Shown: positions 10,093 to 63,068 of the stretch, piece by piece
Position numbering within the stretch: position 1 is the first letter of the stretch
Layout: every line of letters starts with the position of its first letter
NCBI GenBank assembly: GCA_949130485.1
Contig: OX422187.1
Span: forward strand, 6,460,205-6,524,204
Reading direction: 5' to 3'
Length of the DNA stretch: 64,000 nt
Source of the DNA: Agelas oroides
Taxonomy: Eukaryota; Porifera; Demospongiae; Agelasida; Agelasidae
The notes under the pieces: generated by a model
What the model saw: only the letters and a program-made list of their open reading frames with translations
The model's database searches: none
Told to the model about the DNA's origin: nothing
Translations under genes and position numbers: made by a program

Positions 10093-11627
10093 TTGGGGTA
10101 GGATTTGTGACATACCTTTTACGGGCAGTCCAAGTGCTGGACATGCCTGTATTTCTTCTTTCCCTTCCAGCATTGTTCCCCACAACCTTCACCCTTCCAA
10201 TCTTCCTCAGTTTCATCGCCTTTTTTGTAACCAGCCTGTGTGGTGCCTACTCTTCTGCTAAATTGGATCCCCTCAAAAATTATCAGTGCAGCAGCCTTCC
10301 ACATAAGTGGAGTAGCAGAATTTCTTCTGCTTGATTGGATCTACTGTTCTATCAGAATAATGACAGTACACTAGAAAGTGACAATTAAAGCCACAGTGAA
10401 GTTTTGCCTATATTAAGATCAGAAAGTCATGGTGAACATTTTTCGGAATCATTATCACCAGTAACTTAGCAGTGTGGTCGTAGGGTCATAGGCAGTCCAA
10501 ATTGTGGCCGCAATTACAATGTAAGATTGTGCTTATAGGAATGGCTATACCCTTGATTGTGCATCATGCAACCCTATAGGCAAGTGTCATTACTCAACAC
10601 AGTGGTATAGTACAATCTATCAGGAAGATAGAGGACAGAAAAGTGCTTGTAGCTCTGTAAACACCTTTACTGCATTTGATGTTCTCCTTGCTACATTGCA
10701 TCTAGCTTGCTGTAGCCATCAGTCACTGAGAATTTCAGGTTATAGCCATACTCCACTCCCAAATCCAATTAAATAACACACTTGGAGAAATGATCCATTT
10801 TGAACAACAGAATTGTAGACCAGACAGCAAGTTGTAGACTGAACTTTTTTTTTTGCAACAAACATATTTAGATACCAAAAATCATATTGTGCACGAGCAT
10901 AATTTCACAACCAAGTGTGGTTCACCTCATGCTATATTTGTCTCTTACCTACATCCTTGTGGAATGTTACACCACTACATGCAATACTTTAAATTTGTTG
11001 AATGTTCAAAGTATCTTACTGGTAGGCAACTAGCTTGTAGCATGTTTTAAAAAGTTGGAGTCCTCACTTGTATATGCACTGTCTCAGGTATTTGTACACC
11101 TTCTGACTATTAGGTGTTAGTGTTTGTGTAAATAGCTGTCAGTGTTAGGTATTTTGTCAGTTATTTTGGTTCCGTATTTAAGTGCTCATTGTTTTACTTT
11201 TTTGTTGATCTATCTTTGGTTCTGGTGTGCACATTCTAGTAGTGAATTATTGTAATGCAGCAATTGACAAATCAAATCACAAATAACCATTAAGCATATC
11301 ATGGCTCTCCATCCTGCATGGTCTAATGCCACAAACTTAATAAAGAGTTATCATTGATCTGTAATTACATAAGACAAACATGGCAAAAACTATGCGACTA
11401 GATGTTACAAAACTAATTCTATAACCAATTGATGCAGTAGTTGGTGGTTAATTACTACCCAGTTTTAATAATGGTGGCATAAGGCCACAAATAGTTGTCT
11501 ATGGTGGCAAATTGAGGATGTTAAATACTTGTTGTACCATGACCTTCCAGAGTAGACAAGATAACAGTAAAGGTTGGTCGAGCCTACAAAAGAAGATGAA
11601 ATATGAATGATGAAATGATCTGACATA
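10093..11627. other. Intergenic, no gene seen
   Basis: Only short random frames; no splice-bounded coding segment or structured repeat recognised. Confidence 0.5.
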
Positions 11628-11990
11628 ATCAGCAGTAGCCTCATACCCAGGCTCAGTACAAGGCTAATCAGCAGTAGCCTCATACCCAGGCTCAGTACAA
11701 GGCTAATCAGCAGTAGCCTCATACCCAGGCTCAGTACAAGGCTAATCAGCAGTAGCCTCATACCCAGGCTCAGTACAAGGCTAATCAGCAGTAGCCTCAT
11801 ACCCAGGCTCAGTACAAGGCTAATCAGCAGTAGCCTCATACCCAGGCTCAGTACAAGGCTAATCAGCAGTAGCCTCATACCCAGGCTCAGTACAAGGCTA
11901 ATCAGCAGTAGCCTCATACCCAGGCTCAGTACAAGGCTAATCAGCAGTAGCCTCATACCCAGGCTCAGTACAAGGCTAATCAGCAGTATA
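11628..11990. repeat. 39-bp minisatellite, about 9 identical copies
   Basis: Unit AGTAGCCTCATACCCAGGCT, then CAGTACAAGGCTAATCAGC. Copies are essentially identical, implying recent expansion or conversion. The unit is a miniature foldback (TAGCCT...AAGGCTA). The long minus-strand frame over it is an artefact. Confidence 0.96.
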
Positions 11991-18491: not shown

Positions 18492-21400
18492 CTTCCAATT
18501 ACTCTAACAGAGTACATTGCTACCTACGTATTACAGATGGAGACTTACCTTTATTCTTCAGAGCAGCTAAGATCTTTGTAAAGCTTGGCCTGGCCTGTAT
18601 ATGGTTAAACGATTAGCATTTGTAGAGATAAGTAGGCCTCGCACAGATCATCCTGCTTTTCTGTATTGCAAGCAACGGAAACCTGAGCGGGGCCTGGAAA
18701 TGAGGCTAAGCGTAGCCTTTACACAGATTACATCACAACTATTTAGCTGTGCTGGCTGAACAAAGTGGGTGTGACTGTTCAAGTTCATGTGTTATAGTAA
18801 TGCTATAATAATGTGACTAATTTAAATTAATGTGGGCATAGATTTGTGAGTGCGAAAGAGTTTGGCTGACTAAGATGTAGTAGCTAGCTGTCCAGGAACA
18901 GCAACAGGTATGGACTTCCAGCTATGAACAATCAACGAACCACATCTCCCTTATAAAACAGGCCTAGATGTTATGCAAAGTCACCCACTGCGCAGGACGC
19001 GTTTCGGCCAATACCAGGCCTCATCAGCTGCGCTGGGGTGACCTATGCCCACTCAGGCTTGCCCTGAGTTTAATGTGATCTGACTGTGCTAGTCTTATCC
19101 CCAGACAAAATTTATCTGTACGTCACAAACTTGTGCGTCCTTGTAATTGTAAAATCTAGATGCACATGCACCTACAAATATCCACCTTAACGGTGTATCA
19201 CATAACTTCCCTTTTGTTACTCCAAAGGCTAGACATGATTCATCTATAACTGAAATCATGTTTGGGAAGCTTGTAACATAGATAAAACACAACCTTGTGA
19301 TCTGCCTTCCAGCACATCTGCATCAGCTTGTAGAGGTAGTGAGTAGCAAAAGGAGTAGGCCTAGGGATGGGAGGCCTCTGCAAGGCAATATGGAACAAGC
19401 TTGAATAATGGAAAAGCTGTGTCAGATAATATATAGAGTGTGCTGCCATTGAGAATGAATATACTCTACCTTTCTGTGTAACACCTCGTTGCACACCTCT
19501 GCAGCAGGTAGCTCAGCAAAAGGCTGTTTGTGGCTCAGAAGCTCCCACAGAAGCATCCCATATGAGAACACATCACTGTAGAATGTTGCTGGTTCATGCC
19601 GCATGATCTGAACAAGTCAAATATATTATAGAATAAGTGAACAATGCATGTTCAGCCACCATCAATAATCAGCCCCTCACCACAGGAAACAGGGAAGTAG
19701 GAGGCCTTACCTTTCTGACAGTGGAGATGCCACCACTCCATTGTGGTTCCAAACTGAAATAGCAAACGGAGCTGTATTTCTGTATTGGAGTAATCTATTG
19801 AGCAACCTACTGCAGTTAACACTGGCTCAGTTTTTAGGTCAAATCTGCACAAGTGGTTCTGTGTTTGCCACTTAGATCGTGTGAAGTAGACAGTGTAACT
19901 TACCAGAGTAAGCTGTACACAGAATTTCCTGAAGTCGACCTCAAGGCTCGCTAATAGTTTACTATTGGCATGCTCAGGCAGCCTTAGGCATAATTAGATT
20001 CATATGCCAGCCACACAAAGCCAGCTGCTAGTGAACAGTGTAACTTTGTGCCATTTTGTGGAAGGTAAAATAAAGCTGTTTGGAGCTGAAATTTTCAACA
20101 GTTTCTCTGTGGCAATTGTTGTACTAGAATCCGGTTGGAAACAGTGCATATGTACAATGTACAAGCCACTGGAAGTTGTAATATGCAAGTTTCTGTCCAT
20201 TTTAGCCCAACTTTTCGGCTTATATTTAGTTTAGGAGGGTGCTGTACTTAGTTTCCAGGCAAATTCGTCTTCTTCAGGTGGTAAGCTTTCCAATGGTGAC
20301 AAAATTGCTACAATTTACCTGGTGTTCACAGTCCGCATTTTGGAAAATAGTTGCAAACACTGCTCAATACTTATTGGCATTATGCACGCAGTACTGGCTT
20401 GGCTAGGGCTTCCCCAGCTCCAGCTTTTAATCACTTGCCATTACTGTTAAGTTATCAAAACTGGAGCCAGGGAAGACCTGAGAATGAGGCTACACATTGG
20501 TTGCATTAGGCCAATTTATGCTGTTTTACCAATCAACTTTGCAAACACATTGCTCAAACAGTAAATTACAGCAGCTGTGTTTGCTACTCTAGTGCCTAAA
20601 GGGAAGTGCCTGCTACTTCTTGTTTCCTGTGGTGAGTGGCTGATTATTGGTGGTATTGGAACACTGGTGTTGGAGAATGAACAATAATTTTGATCTTGTT
20701 ACATCACGAAACCAATTCAAAATTACATGGAATTACCTCTGGAGCCATCCAGCGATAGGTATCAGCAAGTTCTTCAATTGCAGCATACTCAAGAAATTTT
20801 GCAAAACCAAAGCCACATATCTGCAGTGGAAGGAGCATATTTTCACATAAAAGAATCCAAGGGGGCTTTGTATATTACAAATACTGATATATGCTCTAAT
20901 TTCACTGCTCTGCCCCTGTTAGCCTTGATTCCAGGCTTTCAACTATGAATTTGTCTCCCAGCTGTTCTCCAAAGCTGCGAAACCAAATCTATAATGGAAA
21001 CCCTGGGTCCAAGGCTCCAAAGCTGTGAGACAATAGCTGTAATGGATATCCTGGGTCCAAGGCTCCAAAGCTGTGAGACAACAACTGTAATGGATAGCCT
21101 GGGTCCAAGGCTCCAAAGCTGTGAGACAATAACTGTAATGGATAGCCTGGGTCCAAGGCTCCAAAGCTGTGAGACAATAGCTGTAATGAATAGCCTTGGT
21201 TCAAGGCTCCAAAGCTGTGAGACAATAGCTGTAATGGATAGATAGCCTTGGTTCAAGGCTCCAAAGCTGTGAGACAGTAGCTGTAATGGATAGCCTGGGT
21301 CCAAGGCTCCAAACCTGTGAGACAATAGCTGTAATGGATAGCCTGGGTCCAAGGCTCCAAAGCTGTGAGACAATAACTGTAATGGATAGCCTGGGTTCAA

Positions 21401-24400
21401 GGCTCCAAAGCTGTGAGACAATAGCTGTAATGGATAGCCTGGGTCCAAGGCTCCAAAGCTGTGAGACAATAACTGTAATGGATAGCCTGGGTCCAAGGCT
21501 CCAAAGCTGTGAGACAATAACTGTAATGGATAGCCTGGATTTGAGGATTTTCCCCCCTGTTAAAACGATCTTCTTCCACTATAATCAATACCTTTGCATC
21601 CAATTCCTCAGTAAGCAGCACTACAACAGAAGAGATGTGCACAATCACGTATTAGCATAGCAGTACAATATGTATAAGCACATTAGCTGCCATAATTATG
21701 AAACATTACCATTGCTGGGTTTTAGGTTCCTATGAAAAATTCTCAGGCTATGGAGGTAGTGCATCCCTGTACATGTTAGAAAATATGTAATCATCATAAT
21801 AAAATTTTAAGTTATGCATCATTGCAACCACACCTTCAGCAGTCTGCTCTGCCCACCGAATGCTTTCCTTAACCTCAGGCTTGTGACCTTTCACATGAAT
21901 GTAGTCATGAACAGATCCATTCGGAGCAAATTCTGGGGAGCAAACATGAAATTATAATCCCATCTTTTAAAGTACCTGGGCCAAACTGTAAGTGGTAACT
22001 ACCTGTAAGGAAGCACAAGATTTGATCTTGCAGGGATGTGCCGTAGAACTGAACGAGATTATCATGCTTGAGAGAGCCAAGGCGTACAATCTAGAAAGTT
22101 ATATACTATGTTAATTGTGTCAGAGTATAATTATTACAAAATTTAGCCCACCTCATTGGGTTCCAGTTTGCTTAACGCAACAAGTCTTTTTGCAACAACC
22201 TTGATAGCTACATGCTTTGAGTTCCAGAACCCTTCATATGTAGCTCCTAATCCACTTTCTCCCAGCTTCCCTCCATACTCAATATCTGAGTACCTCACTG
22301 CATAGGGGGTGAGCTTATTGTACATTAGGTACTTTGGATTTTCCCTCACTGGCACACAATGCAAGTAAAATTGAAATTGCTGTATTTAGAGCTATGAGTA
22401 TCTGCTCTTGGACCATTCAACTAAGGGCATTTTCAATGTCATTCTATACCAAGGTATATAATTCTCTTTACATTTTGACTAAATGTTAAATTTGCAGATA
22501 TGAAGTTGACTGTCAGTAACATTGTCAGTACACTTCTGCTTTTACATGTACACACATGATCGCCGTAAATCTTATGCACAGAAATTTTAATCTGTAACTG
22601 CTTGTCAGTAAATATTATGATGCTTCAGTTGGTATACATATTCCAGTCTTATAGGTCCCTCTGTACGTTTCATGAGCATTTTGGACTGTGGCTTAACTTG
22701 CTTTTACAGTAAACATTCTTTAACTACATGTATCTGCATTACACAACAGTCAAAAACCATACACCATGACTTATCATTTTAGTGCTAGCTAATGATTACC
22801 TTCCAGCTCTTTCTCTTTTTTCTTCATTGTGCCCATGAATCAATTACATGTGTACATGAAAAGAAACAATGTCAACACGGCATACTAAGGAAGATCAATC
22901 ACACTGCATGTAAAAACAATAGCTCGATCAACTACAATTGTTCAAATATCATACTTGCAGGCATGTACCTTCACTGCATAAAAATTCAACCATATTTTGG
23001 TCAACTCAGTTACGTGTGCATGACACACTGAAGTTCAAGGAATGCATATAGGTCTTTTGAACACCTTGAATTTAGTTAGAATTCCAAATGTTATTATTGT
23101 TTGCTCTTGCACATCTGGCATCATCTTGTTGCATTTTTAGTGGTAGAAATGCCCGGAATGTAGCCAAATAGGTCTTCTGAAAGAAGAGACTGATTTTATT
23201 TATGAAAAAAACCACCTTGACAGGCTTTCACTATTTAGTAGCATTCCTTGGATTGATATTTGTATCACTGCATGATGCAACTGAAATGACCTACAAATAT
23301 ATGGTGAAAGTAAATTGTCTGATTTTACAGTGAATTGGTCCTTGGTACTGCAACTTGGGTCACAGAGATTTGCTTCATGATTTACAGTATCGTGGGAGCA
23401 TATATCTTCTTTATGTCCAAATTAGACAGTAATTCATACTATCATTCCTACACAGTACATTATAACATATTGTACACGTTCTCCAAACAGGTTGCTCACC
23501 TTCTGATAGGTAGAAAACAAAAGAAGAAGAAAGAAAAAGATGGCAATGGTAATTTGTTAGGTTTGGTTGTCACTACATGTAAACTTGCTTCCACTTACCC
23601 ACTAATAAGCAGGTGGCAGCAATTTAAAGCAGGGAAGAGGTAGTAGACGGCATTCTGAGAATATTTGTTGCCTGCAGGTATGTTCACTTACCTCCTGTCA
23701 TCAGCAGGCAGCAATTTGGTAGAAACACATGAAATTAGAACACAATGTACCCTTTGGTGTCTTAACTGAAGAACACTTTATATGTAGCTGTTGTGCATTT
23801 AGATTTGCCATTTAAACAGTTTCTTACCTCCTGATGATGAGCAGGTAGGATTTTTGAAGTTAAAAGGAAAAGTAGATGATATATAGTTCACAGAGTTGTG
23901 CTGTCCAATGTCCACTTACCTCCTGTTGATGAGCAGGCAAGTGAAATGGGAGAAAGGCAGCATACGTTAACTTAGAACTAAAATTCAACTAGTGCAGTTA
24001 CTCTGTTCAGAATGTCCACTTACTCTCTGTGAAGCACATGGAATGAAAAAGGATAAAGGCAGATGACAGAATGCCATTTAGGATCACTGCATGTAGATTG
24101 GTGTAACCTCCAAACAAGGCCACTTACTTTCTGTTGATGAAAAGGCAATTTGAAATGAAACAGAAAGCAGTGGACAATTATTACTCAAACAACTGCACAA
24201 TGTCATGCATGTAGTAACTTACTTTCTGTTGATGAGCAGTTAGCCAATATGAGAAGATTGAAAAAAGAAAAAGCAGCTGATAAACTACAACTGTCACGGC
24301 ATAGAGATGCATTCCACTTACGTCCTAATGAGTGTGCAGCAATGTGGAAGCAGCCAGAAGATAATTCACAAGGGGTGAAACAGAAGGTATAAAATCAAAT

Positions 24401-27400
24401 ACAGTCTTTGCATGCTGATGCCTAATCCACTTACCGCCTCATGGTGATCAGGAGGAAGGTTGCATTGGAAACAAAACATGGACATCAGATTTTCTGTGTA
24501 CTCTATGAGTATTGCATGCCAAAGTCTTTTTCAAACAGCCCACTTACCGCCTGATGGTATGAAATTTGGAAGTAAGAAAGAAAGAAAACAGCAGAGAATA
24601 TACATGTACCTTAGCGTCAGTTATTGCATGTTTACGAACAGAAACAGATCACTTACCAGCTGATAACGAGCATGCAGCAATTTGAACGAGAAGGAAAAGA
24701 TGATAAATGTGTCATTACACTTAACACAACTGAACTGTCACAGAATGATAAGAGTCTACTTACTCTCTGGTGATGAGCAGGCATTGAGAAGTGAACAGGG
24801 AGAGAGGGAACAAGGCAATTTTACTCAATTCTGTGTGTGTACCAGATACAGACTTTCACAAAGACCCAAGTACCTCCTGGTTTTGAGCCAACAGCGTTTT
24901 AGAGGAGAAAAAGGGAAGAAGCAGCTAACAATAATCATACTATCACCACAAATATATTGTTCAAGTAGACATACTTCCTGATGATGACCAGGCATCAATG
25001 TGGAGAAAGCAGTCAACAATCATTCATACTCAGATGTGCCCTCCTAGATATCCACTTACAGTCTGATGATTAGCAGGTAGCACAAGCAAAGGAAAGCAAC
25101 AGTATACCTTTTGGTTCAAAGTACAATCTGCTCCCATGCAGTCTACTTACATTCTGATGAAGTGATGGGGAAGCAATTTGGATGTGAGAGATGAAAGATA
25201 GCAATCACTCCAGACTTTGGATACAATAGTTTTTCATTCAGTCTATACTAACCTCCTGATGATGGTGAGCAAGTGTGATGTGGAAATGAAAAACAACAAA
25301 CAGATGATTATATTGTGTAGTCCCAACATTATACTGTCCAAACAGTTCACTTACTAGCTGATGTTGAGCAGGCAGGTGTGAAGTGAAAAAGGATTCAATT
25401 ACATCCAGTCACTGTGTACGTACAGATGAAGCTAATCTCCAACTTACTTTCTGATGGTCAACAATAATGAAGTGGAAAAAGAAAGTCAGTTTAGGGTCAT
25501 TGTTCACTAATGCTCACAAGAAGCTATACACTTACTTTCTGTTGAGCAGGAATTTGGAAGTCGAACAGGTAGGAGAGGGAGTTTCATATCAGTCCACATA
25601 TATATATACACATGTGCAGCCAGTGCAGCAGTTGTAGCAGCCTACTTACGTGCTGAGCAGTAATAAGAAAAAGTGGGTAAGAGATAATATAATTACTCGG
25701 AATTTTTAATAAGATATATTCCCCAAGCATCTCGCTTACCTCCTGGTGGTGGTGATGCAGCACCAATTTTGAAAGTAAAGGTAGATTACGAATCACGGCA
25801 GGTAGTATGCATTTTATATACATTCATTCCACTTACATCCTGGTGATATTCAGGCAGCAACTCAGAGGTAAGATACAAAGGCAGAAAAGGGAGTTACCGC
25901 ATGCAGGTATGATTTTCAAGCACTCAACTTACACCCTGAATAAAAGTGATGTAAGAAGCAGCCTATAATGCTCAAGTGACTTATGCAGCCTCAGCACATT
26001 ACTAAAGTGTCAACTTACCCACTGATGATGAATGGGTAGCCATGTGGATATGAAAAGGAGAACGAACAGCAGATAGTACTTTGTAAAACTCTATTATGTG
26101 TGCACTTGATTATCTCTTACCATCTAATGATCGATGAGCGGCAACAAGAAAAGAAGAGGTAGAAAATGTTTCAGATGTGACACCTTTTGTACTTGCTACA
26201 TGCAGTAAATATAGTCTGCTTACTTTCTGATGATAAGAAGGCAGCAGTTTGGAAGTAAAAGATGAAGTAACACGCAGTAATTAATCCACTGAATTCACTG
26301 TATTCCCTCCAAGAGGTCTGCTTACCTTCTGATAAGCACGCAAATGAAGAGAAAGATGCATAGTAATTTAGCAAATTCTGTCAAGCATGCAGGTGTACTC
26401 TCCAAGCATTCCACTTACCAGCTAATGGAAAAGAAAAGATTGCATTTCTGATAATTATATTTAAAGTCATTGCATGCTCTCTAAAGCAGTCCACTTACCC
26501 CCTGATGATGACAATTCAGTGATAAAGAAGCAGTAGTTGGTAATTCACAGAACTCAGACATTCTCTCCTTATATGTATGCTCACCTCCTGATGATTGGAG
26601 GAAGCGAACATTAGATGATAGTTCACACGGTTCTATTGTGAACCCTGTTATATAGCATGGAGATTTGCTCCTCTACCACATCACTTACCAACTAATGACA
26701 AACAGGTACCAATTCGGAAAGAGAAAGATAGAAAAGTAGTAAACAGCAAGTCACAGAACTTCGTGTTCAGTCACAGACATGATGCCATAGCTGTCAACTT
26801 ACAGTCTGCACGATGGTCAGCAGTTTGGGAGTATACAGTAAGGAAAAGAGCAACAGACATAGTAGTTAATAAAGTAGTATGTACATGCAATCACTTCTCT
26901 CCAACTATCCACTTACCTCCTGATTATAAGTAGAAATGTTTGGGAATAAAAAGCAGATAGCAATTCACAGTGTTGTGCATTCAAATAATACTATGCAATC
27001 TGCATACCTCCTGACGATAAGCAGACCAATCAAAAAGGGTAGAGAAAGCAGATGACATTTTATATAACTATGCAGTCACAATAGGTAGCAATTAATACGC
27101 ACTTACCAATACGTCCTGATGAAGTGTATATGCAGCAAGGTAGTTGGAAAGGTAAAGCAGATCACATTCTACGTAACTCTCTGCATGCATGGTAATGTGC
27201 TGCAGTGCAAGTCTCACTTACGTTCTACAGATGAGCAGGCAGCCATTTGGAAATAAAAGGGAAGATGCAATTCACAGAGGTATCTGATATACCATGTGGA
27301 TGTTGTCTTTGAGTACCACACTTACCATCTGCATGACAATAATAACCAGGCAGATTAAATTTGAGAAATGGAGAAAGTAGGTAATGTTTCATGTGCATGT

Positions 27401-28097
27401 CATGTGAATGTACTCTCTAGCCACTCCACTTACCCCCTGAGGAGGAGCAGGCTAGCAACATGGAAGTGTGAAAAAGAAAACAGGTGTTCAGCAGATGTTA
27501 GCTATACTGCATATACAATTCTCTCCTGTCCATATAGTCAACTTACCACATCCTGATTAGAAGGCAGCAATTAGTTTCAAAGGAAGGAATTAGGGTGAAT
27601 GCATTTCAGAGGTGTTCATAGTCACTGCATGCAGATGCAGTTTCTAACAAGTTCACATACCGGCTGGAAAAGAGTAGGCAGTCAGTAAATGAATGCAAGA
27701 GCACATGATGGTTTGGAAAAGGATACATGTATGCAGATTTGCAGTGCACTTACATTCTGATGACAAGCCAACCACAGTTAAGAAGTGAAGGGCATAAAGA
27801 AATGGATTATAGTTTAAATTATGGAATTTATGCATAGACTGTCATACTCACTGGTTAATATACTTCTGTATTTGAACACAACATACACTAATTAACTCAT
27901 TACAATGACATTAGCTTACATTCTAAAGTTCCATCATTATCATGTTGTCAGTTGGCACATGGAGATAGAAAGAATCATGTTTCCACACATCAGCAATGTT
28001 TGGTACGGCTGGTTTTGTAAAACTCACCCCCTGAAGAGAAAGGTTGTACGTTTTATCCACATAATTAGGCATTTTCAGTAAAATTGCTTACCATCAG
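13549..28097 (-). CDS. Tandem pseudokinase-kinase gene with microexon-encoded coiled-coil N-terminus (whole gene model, 3' end missing)
   Basis: Joined model on the minus strand. In order: a start region at 28,097-28,092 (CTG ATG, then a splice donor), an array of single-codon exons down to 23,500, a 22-nt Lys/Glu-rich exon (22,821-22,800), nine pseudokinase exons (22,348-18,549) and eight kinase exons (18,491-13,549). All splice phases agree: the 22-nt exon ends in phase 1 and the next begins in phase 1; the last pseudokinase exon ends in phase 1 and the first kinase exon can begin in phase 1. Introns in the kinase part are mostly 57-90 nt. The order coiled coil, pseudokinase, kinase recalls JAK-type pairing, but the kinase motifs look TKL/MAP3K-like. 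The exon after 13,549, expected to carry the final helix, was not found. Whether the two kinase domains share one transcript or are two adjacent genes is inferred from phase only. Confidence 0.6.
14098..17556 (-). other. Long kinase intron with dispersed repeats
   Basis: No exon recognised. A roughly 40-bp string (beginning ATCCAAAAAATCCCTTCA) occurs at about 14,369 and again near 16,540, and two paired blocks (about 14,880-14,990 and 15,780-15,985) share CACCGACCTCTG / CACCGGAA-type text in opposite orientation, so the intron probably holds decayed mobile elements. A 118-codon minus-strand frame at 16,314-16,670 has no recognisable domain. Confidence 0.5.
18549..22821 (-). CDS. Pseudokinase domain exons (TKL-like, HRN and GFG)
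   Basis: Exons: 22800-22821 (KKEKELE, phase 0 to 1), 22152-22348, 22003-22090, 21834-21932, 21710-21766, 21592-21620, 20737-20820, 19470-19607, 19294-19377, 18549-18594; all have GT-AG borders and compatible phases. The N-lobe has a glycine loop (GESGLGATYEG), VAIK lysine and a helix-C Glu before IVRLGSLKHDNLVQFYG. The catalytic loop reads HRNLKPSN, so the catalytic Asp is Asn. The metal-binding motif reads ICGFGFAK, so the DFG Asp is Gly. RWMAPE, SDVFSYGMLLWELL and the closing RPSFTKILAALKNK are intact. ATP binding may survive through Lys and Glu, but phosphotransfer is unlikely. A 48-bp minisatellite sits in the intron between 20,820 and 21,592. The acceptor of the 22-nt exon lacks a good pyrimidine tract, so an ATG just upstream (22,827) could instead start a shorter isoform. 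Confidence 0.82.
18980..19043. repeat. Short inverted repeat with GCGTTTCGGCCAATACCAGG
   Basis: GTCACCCACTGCGCAG opposite CTGCGCTGGGGTGAC, enclosing text also found inverted at about 3,166-3,192 (CCTGGTATTGGCCGAAATGC). It lies in a pseudokinase intron. Confidence 0.6.
19711..19753 (-). pseudogene. Orphan kinase activation-loop-like exon
   Basis: A 43-nt segment bounded by a good acceptor (TATTTCAG) and donor (GTAAGG) reads EPQWSGGISTVRK in one frame, resembling the end of a kinase activation loop. It lies between pseudokinase exons that already join in phase 0, and 43 nt would break the frame, so it looks like a leftover of a further duplicated kinase copy or a rarely used exon. Confidence 0.35.
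20995..21537. repeat. 48-bp minisatellite, about 11 copies, inside pseudokinase intron
   Basis: Unit is close to AGCCTGGGTCCAAGGCTCC plus AAAGCTGTGAGACAATAGC and TGTAATGGAT. One unit carries a 4-bp duplication near 21,240. Long open frames on both strands are repeat artefacts. The AGCCTGGG...AAGGCT part is a short version of the foldback termini seen throughout the window. Confidence 0.95.
23500..28097 (-). CDS. Array of 47 one-codon microexons
   Basis: 47 units at about 100-bp spacing (64-136), each with AG acceptor, exon, GT donor on the minus strand; about three quarters of donors are GTAAG, and acceptors often end in CTGCTCATCATCAG. Lowest coordinate and exon in transcript order: 28092 CTG-ATG, 28028 GGG, 27920 AAT, 27848 TGA, 27754 AAT, 27661 CCG, 27547 GAT-GTG, 27434 GGG, 27326 ATG, 27222 AAC, 27107 GAC-GTA-TTG, 27008 GAG, 26917 GAG, 26803 ACT, 26689 TTG, 26585 GAG, 26499 GGG, 26419 CTG, 26326 AAG, 26224 AAA, 26121 ATG, 26019 TGG, 25933 GGT, 25837 GAT, 25740 GAG, 25650 CAC, 25536 AAA, 25448 AAA, 25355 CTA, 25253 GAG, 25151 AAT, 25060 ACT, 24975 GAA, 24874 GAG, 24764 AGA, 24657 CTG, 24548 GCG, 24435 GCG, 24322 GAC, 24223 AAA, 24128 AAA, 24024 AGA, 23920 GAG, 23828 GAG, 23692 GAG, 23599 TGG, 23500 AAG. 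Phase 0 has one stop (27848, probably a dead unit); phases 1 and 2 have several. Leu/Trp fall on a 3-4 heptad pattern. Splicing itself is inferred. Confidence 0.8.

Positions 28098-46062: not shown

Positions 46063-63068
<17,006 letters not shown>

Follow-up and report, generated by a model that had tools for sequence, protein, structure and literature searches.

The closest described systems are genes in which exons of very small size are found. In the microexon genes (MEGs) of schistosomes, the microexons are shorter than 36 bp, and 26 of 33 are symmetric in MEGs 26-32 (PMC4671649). Mouse Ncam has an isolated 3-nt exon (PMC8042270), the duplicated lipS genes of a fungus have two 3-nt exons (PMC5639578), and for human RPS24 three consecutive microexons are described, with mention of a 3-bp exon (PMC12686416, PMC11162997). 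Arabidopsis APC11 has a 1-nt exon, for which intron definition and recursive splicing, intron after intron, were proposed; before APC11, the smallest constitutive exon was given as 6 nt (PMC4674806). These statements follow excerpts of the cited papers. Here, we describe a locus in a 64,000-nt stretch of contig OX422187.1 of the sponge Agelas oroides (the whole stretch is referred to as the window). Very probably, judging from the DNA, this locus carries at least 43 consecutive functional exons, nearly all of a single codon, which would have arisen by tandem duplication, would be spliced by intron definition and would lie near the 5' end of the coding region in a gene for a tandem pseudokinase-kinase.

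The train of microexons and the units in front of it are arranged as follows:

27756-23500, minus strand: train of 43 microexons (41 of 3 nt, one of 6 nt, one of 9 nt), with introns of 77-133 nt
27552-27547, minus strand: the 6-nt exon of the train
27115-27107, minus strand: the 9-nt exon of the train
28097-27848, minus strand: four leading AG-NNN-GT units (CTGATG, GGG, AAT, TGA), doubtful members of the train

Each of the 43 units consists of a pyrimidine-rich stretch, AG, the codon or codons, and GT. The last exon (23502-23500) is AAG, and the joined exons give the charged peptide NPDVGMNDVLEETLEGLKKMWGDEHKKLENTEERLAADKKREEEWK of about 46 residues. A profile built from the 41 units with 3-nt exons had 43 matches on both strands of the window; all of them fell on the units between 27756 and 23502, and nothing else in the window was matched. 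The 6-nt and 9-nt units, which were outside the model, were found nonetheless (E 6.4e-6 and E 0.015). With at most one mismatch, CTCAGNNNGTAAGT had 17 matches, 14 of them inside the array, against an expected 1.29; none of 100 shuffles reached 17.

The first-pass annotation of this DNA had listed 47 units of the form AG-(NNN)1-3-GT (44 of 3 nt, two of 6 nt and one of 9 nt) and regarded about 46 of them as one train. All 47 are present at the places and with the lengths that it gave, and 43 are secured by the profile. The four leading units (28097, 28030, 27922 and 27850) were not matched by the profile, so that their membership in the array could not be demonstrated, and unit 27850 would encode the stop TGA. 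Met-Gly-Asn at 28094-27920 is a possible start of the protein, with the proviso that an open frame demands skipping of the TGA unit.

The aligned introns of the train (44 introns, two leading units among them) had a mean identity of 48%, and alignment columns distant from the splice signals mostly carried little information. Higher-order repeats within the train were rejected, as identity was independent of the distance between units. In contrast to this divergence, AG and GT are intact in 43/43 units, which would not be expected from drift alone and therefore suggests selection on splicing at each unit. The donors are strong: 31 of the 43 train donors read GTAAGT, versus one among ten ordinary donors in the hand-built model of this gene, and the mean match was 5.6/6 versus 3.7/6 (Mann-Whitney p 8e-6; the ordinary set omits GTTAGT, the donor that ends the model's last exon). 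When the 43 exons are joined, frame 0 contains no stops, versus three each in frames 1 and 2. Taken alone, this is weak evidence, given the scarcity of T in first codon positions.

The array leads into a gene for which we built a model by hand, with no annotation behind it:

22821-22800, minus strand: 22-nt exon directly following the train, entered in phase 0 and left in phase 1, KKEKELE plus one base; acceptor ...atgaag
22348-22152, minus strand: exon of the linker and pseudokinase N-lobe, VRENPKYLMY...GESGLGATYEG
22090-22003, 21932-21834, 21766-21710 and 21620-21592, minus strand: further pseudokinase exons
20820-20737, 19607-19470, 19377-19294 and 18594-18549, minus strand: further pseudokinase exons
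18491-13784, minus strand: second kinase domain, in frame with the first; exon 18491-18280, with GKGGFG, joined to the model

The frame is open from the train through exon 22821-22800 and the nine pseudokinase exons and then through 18491-18280, with phases agreeing at all junctions, and the joined product of 398 residues matches PF07714 at 1.6e-59 and PF00069 at 6.6e-52. This supports the claim that the array runs in phase into pseudokinase exons. In the translation, read by eye, the first kinase domain has HRN in place of HRD and GFG in place of DFG, and by these motifs it is a pseudokinase. Later open reading frames of the second kinase region, which were not joined to the model, contain HRDLKSEN and CDFG. 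Thus, the gene product is probably a tandem pseudokinase-kinase protein. A 48-bp minisatellite of 11.8 copies lies at 20967-21538, within an intron of the pseudokinase gene.

According to our analysis, the strongest evidence that this organism may splice runs of one-codon exons into functional protein comes from a second gene, in which such exons complete a BTK zinc motif:

C6 ~7318085-7318891, plus strand: six one-codon exons AAG CAT CTG TTT AAT AGG (KHLFNR)

Here, an exon ending in FYLDSENINGTCHWHPG is followed by the six one-codon exons and by a last exon that reads WSCCYKTEEGARGCKTANHVAKL and a stop. For the CAT exon we took GTACGT as the donor, with which the frame is kept; with CATGTAC/GTAAGG, also seen in the scan, it would be broken. 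With all six residues, residues 14-41 of the peptide match positions 2-29 of PF00779 with 28.1 bits (cut-off 24). Removal of any one residue lowers the score to 19.4-23.9 bits, which is below the cut-off in 6/6 cases, and removal of all six lowers it to 18.1, while the addition of a seventh gives 24.4. Among the versions scored, only those with all six residues and with the seventh pass. When the genome was searched unspliced in six frames, the C6 locus covered PF00779 positions 11-29, and the two best copies elsewhere covered 1-29 and 1-30 unbroken. The BTK motif sits at the end of a coiled-coil-like gene (C6:7317600-7318900, plus strand).

The 259-Mb assembly (141 contigs) was also searched for two neighbouring CAG-NNN-GTAAG motifs. 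Such pattern searches returned many minisatellites and, among the matches listed, at least trains 2 and 3 below, and DNA similarity to train 3 added trains 4 and 5; we number the trains from 2 to distinguish them from that of the window:

C1:4095880-4090694, minus strand: train 2, 30 nearly identical units, mostly at 118-bp spacing, with 3 nt between AG and the donor
L071:8236-8817, minus strand: ZU5 domain (Pfam PF00791) behind train 2
C5:10172215 to 10185162 or beyond, plus strand: train 3, spacing 130 or 125, spanning about 100 units
C5:10490828-10495531: train 4, found by DNA similarity to train 3, sampled
C5:11234150-11238493: train 5, found by DNA similarity to train 3, sampled

Train 2 lies after an exon MGNCFGKKRY (C1 near 4096000) and before the ZU5 domain (PF00791, 6.1e-10), and the three may form a single gene. 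We take the first-exon candidate MGNCFGKKRY to resemble an acylation signal, as does the possible Met-Gly-Asn start in the window. A Death domain read by eye behind the ZU5 domain was dropped, as Pfam at E 0.01 gave no confirmation. In train 3, 86 codons were read and 14 remained unread; they are of seven kinds only (GAG, CGT, TTG, CAT, ATG, ATT and CTT) and give an E- and R-rich, helix-like string such as EMEHLREMELERLREHLR. Upstream of it, at 10171762-10171890, isolated or degraded relatives of the unit were seen by eye, one of them intact with GCT and one with its donor lost. Short samples of trains 4 and 5 gave CCA, GTG, CAT, TAT, CAA and CGA (12 units in two samples) and TGG, AAT and TAT (3 units). 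Trains 2-5 share a recognisable common unit. The window unit has no detectable share in it; a common origin with the C1 and C5 units was not supported, with a best nhmmer E of 0.012 over 27 nt at the splice motif. At C9:9283736-9302635 and C1:1103224-1115605, short and irregularly spaced sequences also match the acceptor, codon and donor of the train unit, and one of them reads CTCAG GAG GTAAGT.

The codons of the sister trains vary between nearly fixed introns. On a tree of train 2 made from intron columns (26 units; 3/29 aligned units were dropped as damaged or half-unrelated, and unit 4094175 was missed by the search), parsimony placed 11 changes at codon position 1, the most of all 148 columns, 6 at position 2 (rank 4) and 2 at position 3. 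The mean was 1.15 changes per column, and AG and GTAAGTT had zero changes. In trains 2, 3 and 4 (26, 12 and 8 units), three or more bases were found in 7/9 codon columns versus 25/360 intron columns (Fisher p 6e-7, with columns within one train not independent). In three control minisatellites with the same motif, NNN was constant in 39/39, 7/7 and 4/4 units. Varied codons amid frozen splice signals are the pattern that diversifying selection on a translated residue would be expected to leave. The C20 array (constant GTT) and the C1:4973978 array (CAT/TAT) had been candidates for further trains and were left as minisatellites.

Taken together, the splice signals kept in diverged introns, the strong donors, the frame, the sister trains and the C6 domain support the proposal of a train of single-codon exons made in the first-pass annotation. 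The Leu/Trp residues of the joined peptide, which had been noticed at heptad positions, do show 3-4 spacing, carrying on into KKEKELE, and shuffling of the exon order gives p 0.002-0.13 depending on the hydrophobicity scale and the stretch. We prefer this test, in which stretches were scanned in the shuffles too, to an earlier 3-4 spacing score with stretches picked after the fact (p 0.0006-0.04). The hydrophobic moment at 102.9 degrees gave p 0.29 for the whole array and 0.04-0.11 for selected stretches. The heptad order thus adds weak to moderate support, varying with scale and stretch. This weakness and several other results count against the reading. The joined peptide had no match in Pfam, where one of nine exon-order shuffles had one, and a PDB sequence search with the C6 peptide found nothing significant (ribosomal protein E 0.06, the BTK-family kinase ITK 0.072, BTK 1.1). 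The acceptor gaag before exon 22821 is unusual, as is the same acceptor before 18491. That the exons are 3 nt long and free of stops is in part a legacy of the ancestral unit and its base composition. Donors are damaged in 3/30 units of train 2 (two GG, one GTTTGT), and in train 2 alone the excess of variable codon columns is modest (2/3 versus 23/145). Some of the listed minisatellites also have two NNN variants (C17 TTG/CTG, C20:7.08 Mb TTT/GTT, C1:4.97 Mb CAT/TAT). No genome-wide excess of tiny exons was seen, as TTTCAGN{1,12}GTAAGT occurred 680 times versus 598 for the reversed pattern. Apart from these points, a search with a 119-residue joined query for a paralogue that has the same coil in an ordinary exon returned its own exon and eight weak matches (E 0.06-7.8).

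The alternative that survives best, though we consider it unlikely, is that the exons are real and are included combinatorially, with subsets differing by molecule or cell, so that the train would act as a diversity generator for segment length and register. As all 43 exons are symmetric, any subset stays in frame, and the codons of the young trains vary; in schistosomes, the symmetry of the MEG 26-32 microexons was read by the authors, in the part of the paper used here, as favouring alternative splicing (PMC4671649). However, the Leu/Trp order of the window train and the need of the C6 BTK motif for precisely six residues speak for full inclusion, and the strong donors suggest constitutive use. 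Every codon may always be included, but the symmetry of the exons and the variety of their codons would suit a combinatorial use as well.

It is improbable that a single long intron spans the whole array and that its units are decoy or recursive splice sites, which would serve stepwise removal or gene repression and leave zero codons in the mRNA. The units do resemble the ratchet points of Drosophila plus three bases, and intronic RS-exons are always skipped in flies according to the excerpt used here (PMC8605326). Nevertheless, such sites explain neither the open frame and the multiple-of-three exon lengths nor the varying codons between the near-fixed introns of the sister trains, and the C6 domain scores highest with all six codons present.

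Slightly less probable still is the insertion of mobile, introner-like introns between the codons of an older ordinary exon. Introns within a train are alike, and several loci hold relatives of a unit from the C5 train (train 3). In contrast, the pattern of the window unit, with up to 3 mismatches, was found at 14 places: 8 lie in the array, and the 6 outside it all have 3 mismatches; similar introns spread over many genes were thus not found for this unit. Unbroken insertion at every codon border also seems unlikely, and tandem duplication would be simpler. Finally, a decayed satellite or minisatellite with a chance splice-like motif is hardly credible: the units are indeed tandem and related, and minisatellites with CAGNNNGTAAG abound in the genome, a few of them having two NNN variants, but the units of the array are not near-identical, as those of a minisatellite would be down to the bases between CAG and GTAAG (introns 48% identical, codons varied), random drift at this identity is not expected to spare AG and GT in 43/43 units, NNN was constant in the three controls, and strong donors and pyrimidine-rich acceptors are correctly ordered on one strand.

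Returning to the preferred reading of functional one-codon exons, we infer that the train is included in the mRNA and grew through successive tandem duplications of a unit comprising an intron and a codon. Splicing would proceed by intron definition, with each intron of about 100 nt removed in turn. Once a codon has been joined to the upstream exon, the next strong GTAAGT donor would stand immediately behind it, so that the process would resemble a ratchet advancing by one codon per step; such strong intronic donors would require hardly any support from the exon. As all exon lengths are divisible by three, the frame would be kept at each step and also when any step is lost. The product is predicted to be a charged, probably helical segment of about 46 residues that runs into KKEKELE and the pseudokinase. 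A wider proposition, for which we see the balance as about even, is that this lineage lengthens and diversifies proteins residue by residue: tandem units of intron and codon would be duplicated, their codons driven apart by selection while the splice signals stay frozen, and dozens to about 100 one-codon exons would be joined in several genes.

Elsewhere in the window, a 39-bp array was found at 11626-11988 and a TG-rich array at 57922-58521, and the C-terminal region of a hAT-family transposase lies at 54114-54851 on the minus strand (PF05699, 6.1e-15). Death-domain matches in the genome, of which 150 were scored among 870 candidates, point to a large set of death-fold genes.

Factors that bind the acceptor and the donor cannot occupy three nucleotides together, and exon definition should therefore fail on a 3-nt exon. 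A gene dependent on 43 consecutive exons of this size would offer a natural assay of intron definition, the order of splicing and its fidelity; were each exon included with 99% success, about one transcript in three would be incomplete. The train also suggests that each duplication can lengthen a coding sequence by one residue. Exons of this kind tend to escape annotation pipelines, and parts of the proteins predicted from such genomes may be wrong.

A tandem pseudokinase-kinase arrangement is known from JAK-like proteins, and in the window gene, too, one frame holds two kinase domains, of which the first carries HRN and GFG; the family is assigned here by Pfam PF07714/PF00069 only. Like the schistosome MEGs, it has a part composed of many mostly symmetric microexons, central in the MEGs: by sequence, 43 short exons are consecutive, and 43/43 have lengths divisible by three. 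MEGs also carry a signal peptide in a long 5' exon. Unlike the products described as secreted in the excerpt on schistosomes, kinase domains follow downstream here, and 41/43 exons are of one codon. The exons of Ncam, APC11 and lipS are also far below the size suited to exon definition, but according to the parts of the papers used they number one or two per gene, versus at least 43 consecutive ones here, and the three RPS24 exons are described as alternatively spliced. Drosophila ratchet points share the adjoining acceptor and donor, and splicing would be stepwise in both; in the excerpt used, they are zero-nucleotide exons in long introns (PMC8605326), whereas in 43/43 units of the window AG and GT are separated by 3, 6 or 9 nt, with a codon per step and introns of about 100 nt. 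Our search of open-licence PMC papers found no report of a one-codon exon run; within its own genome, the sister trains mean that the train is not unique. The component parts are known, and for the scale and the codon-by-codon architecture that search gave no precedent.

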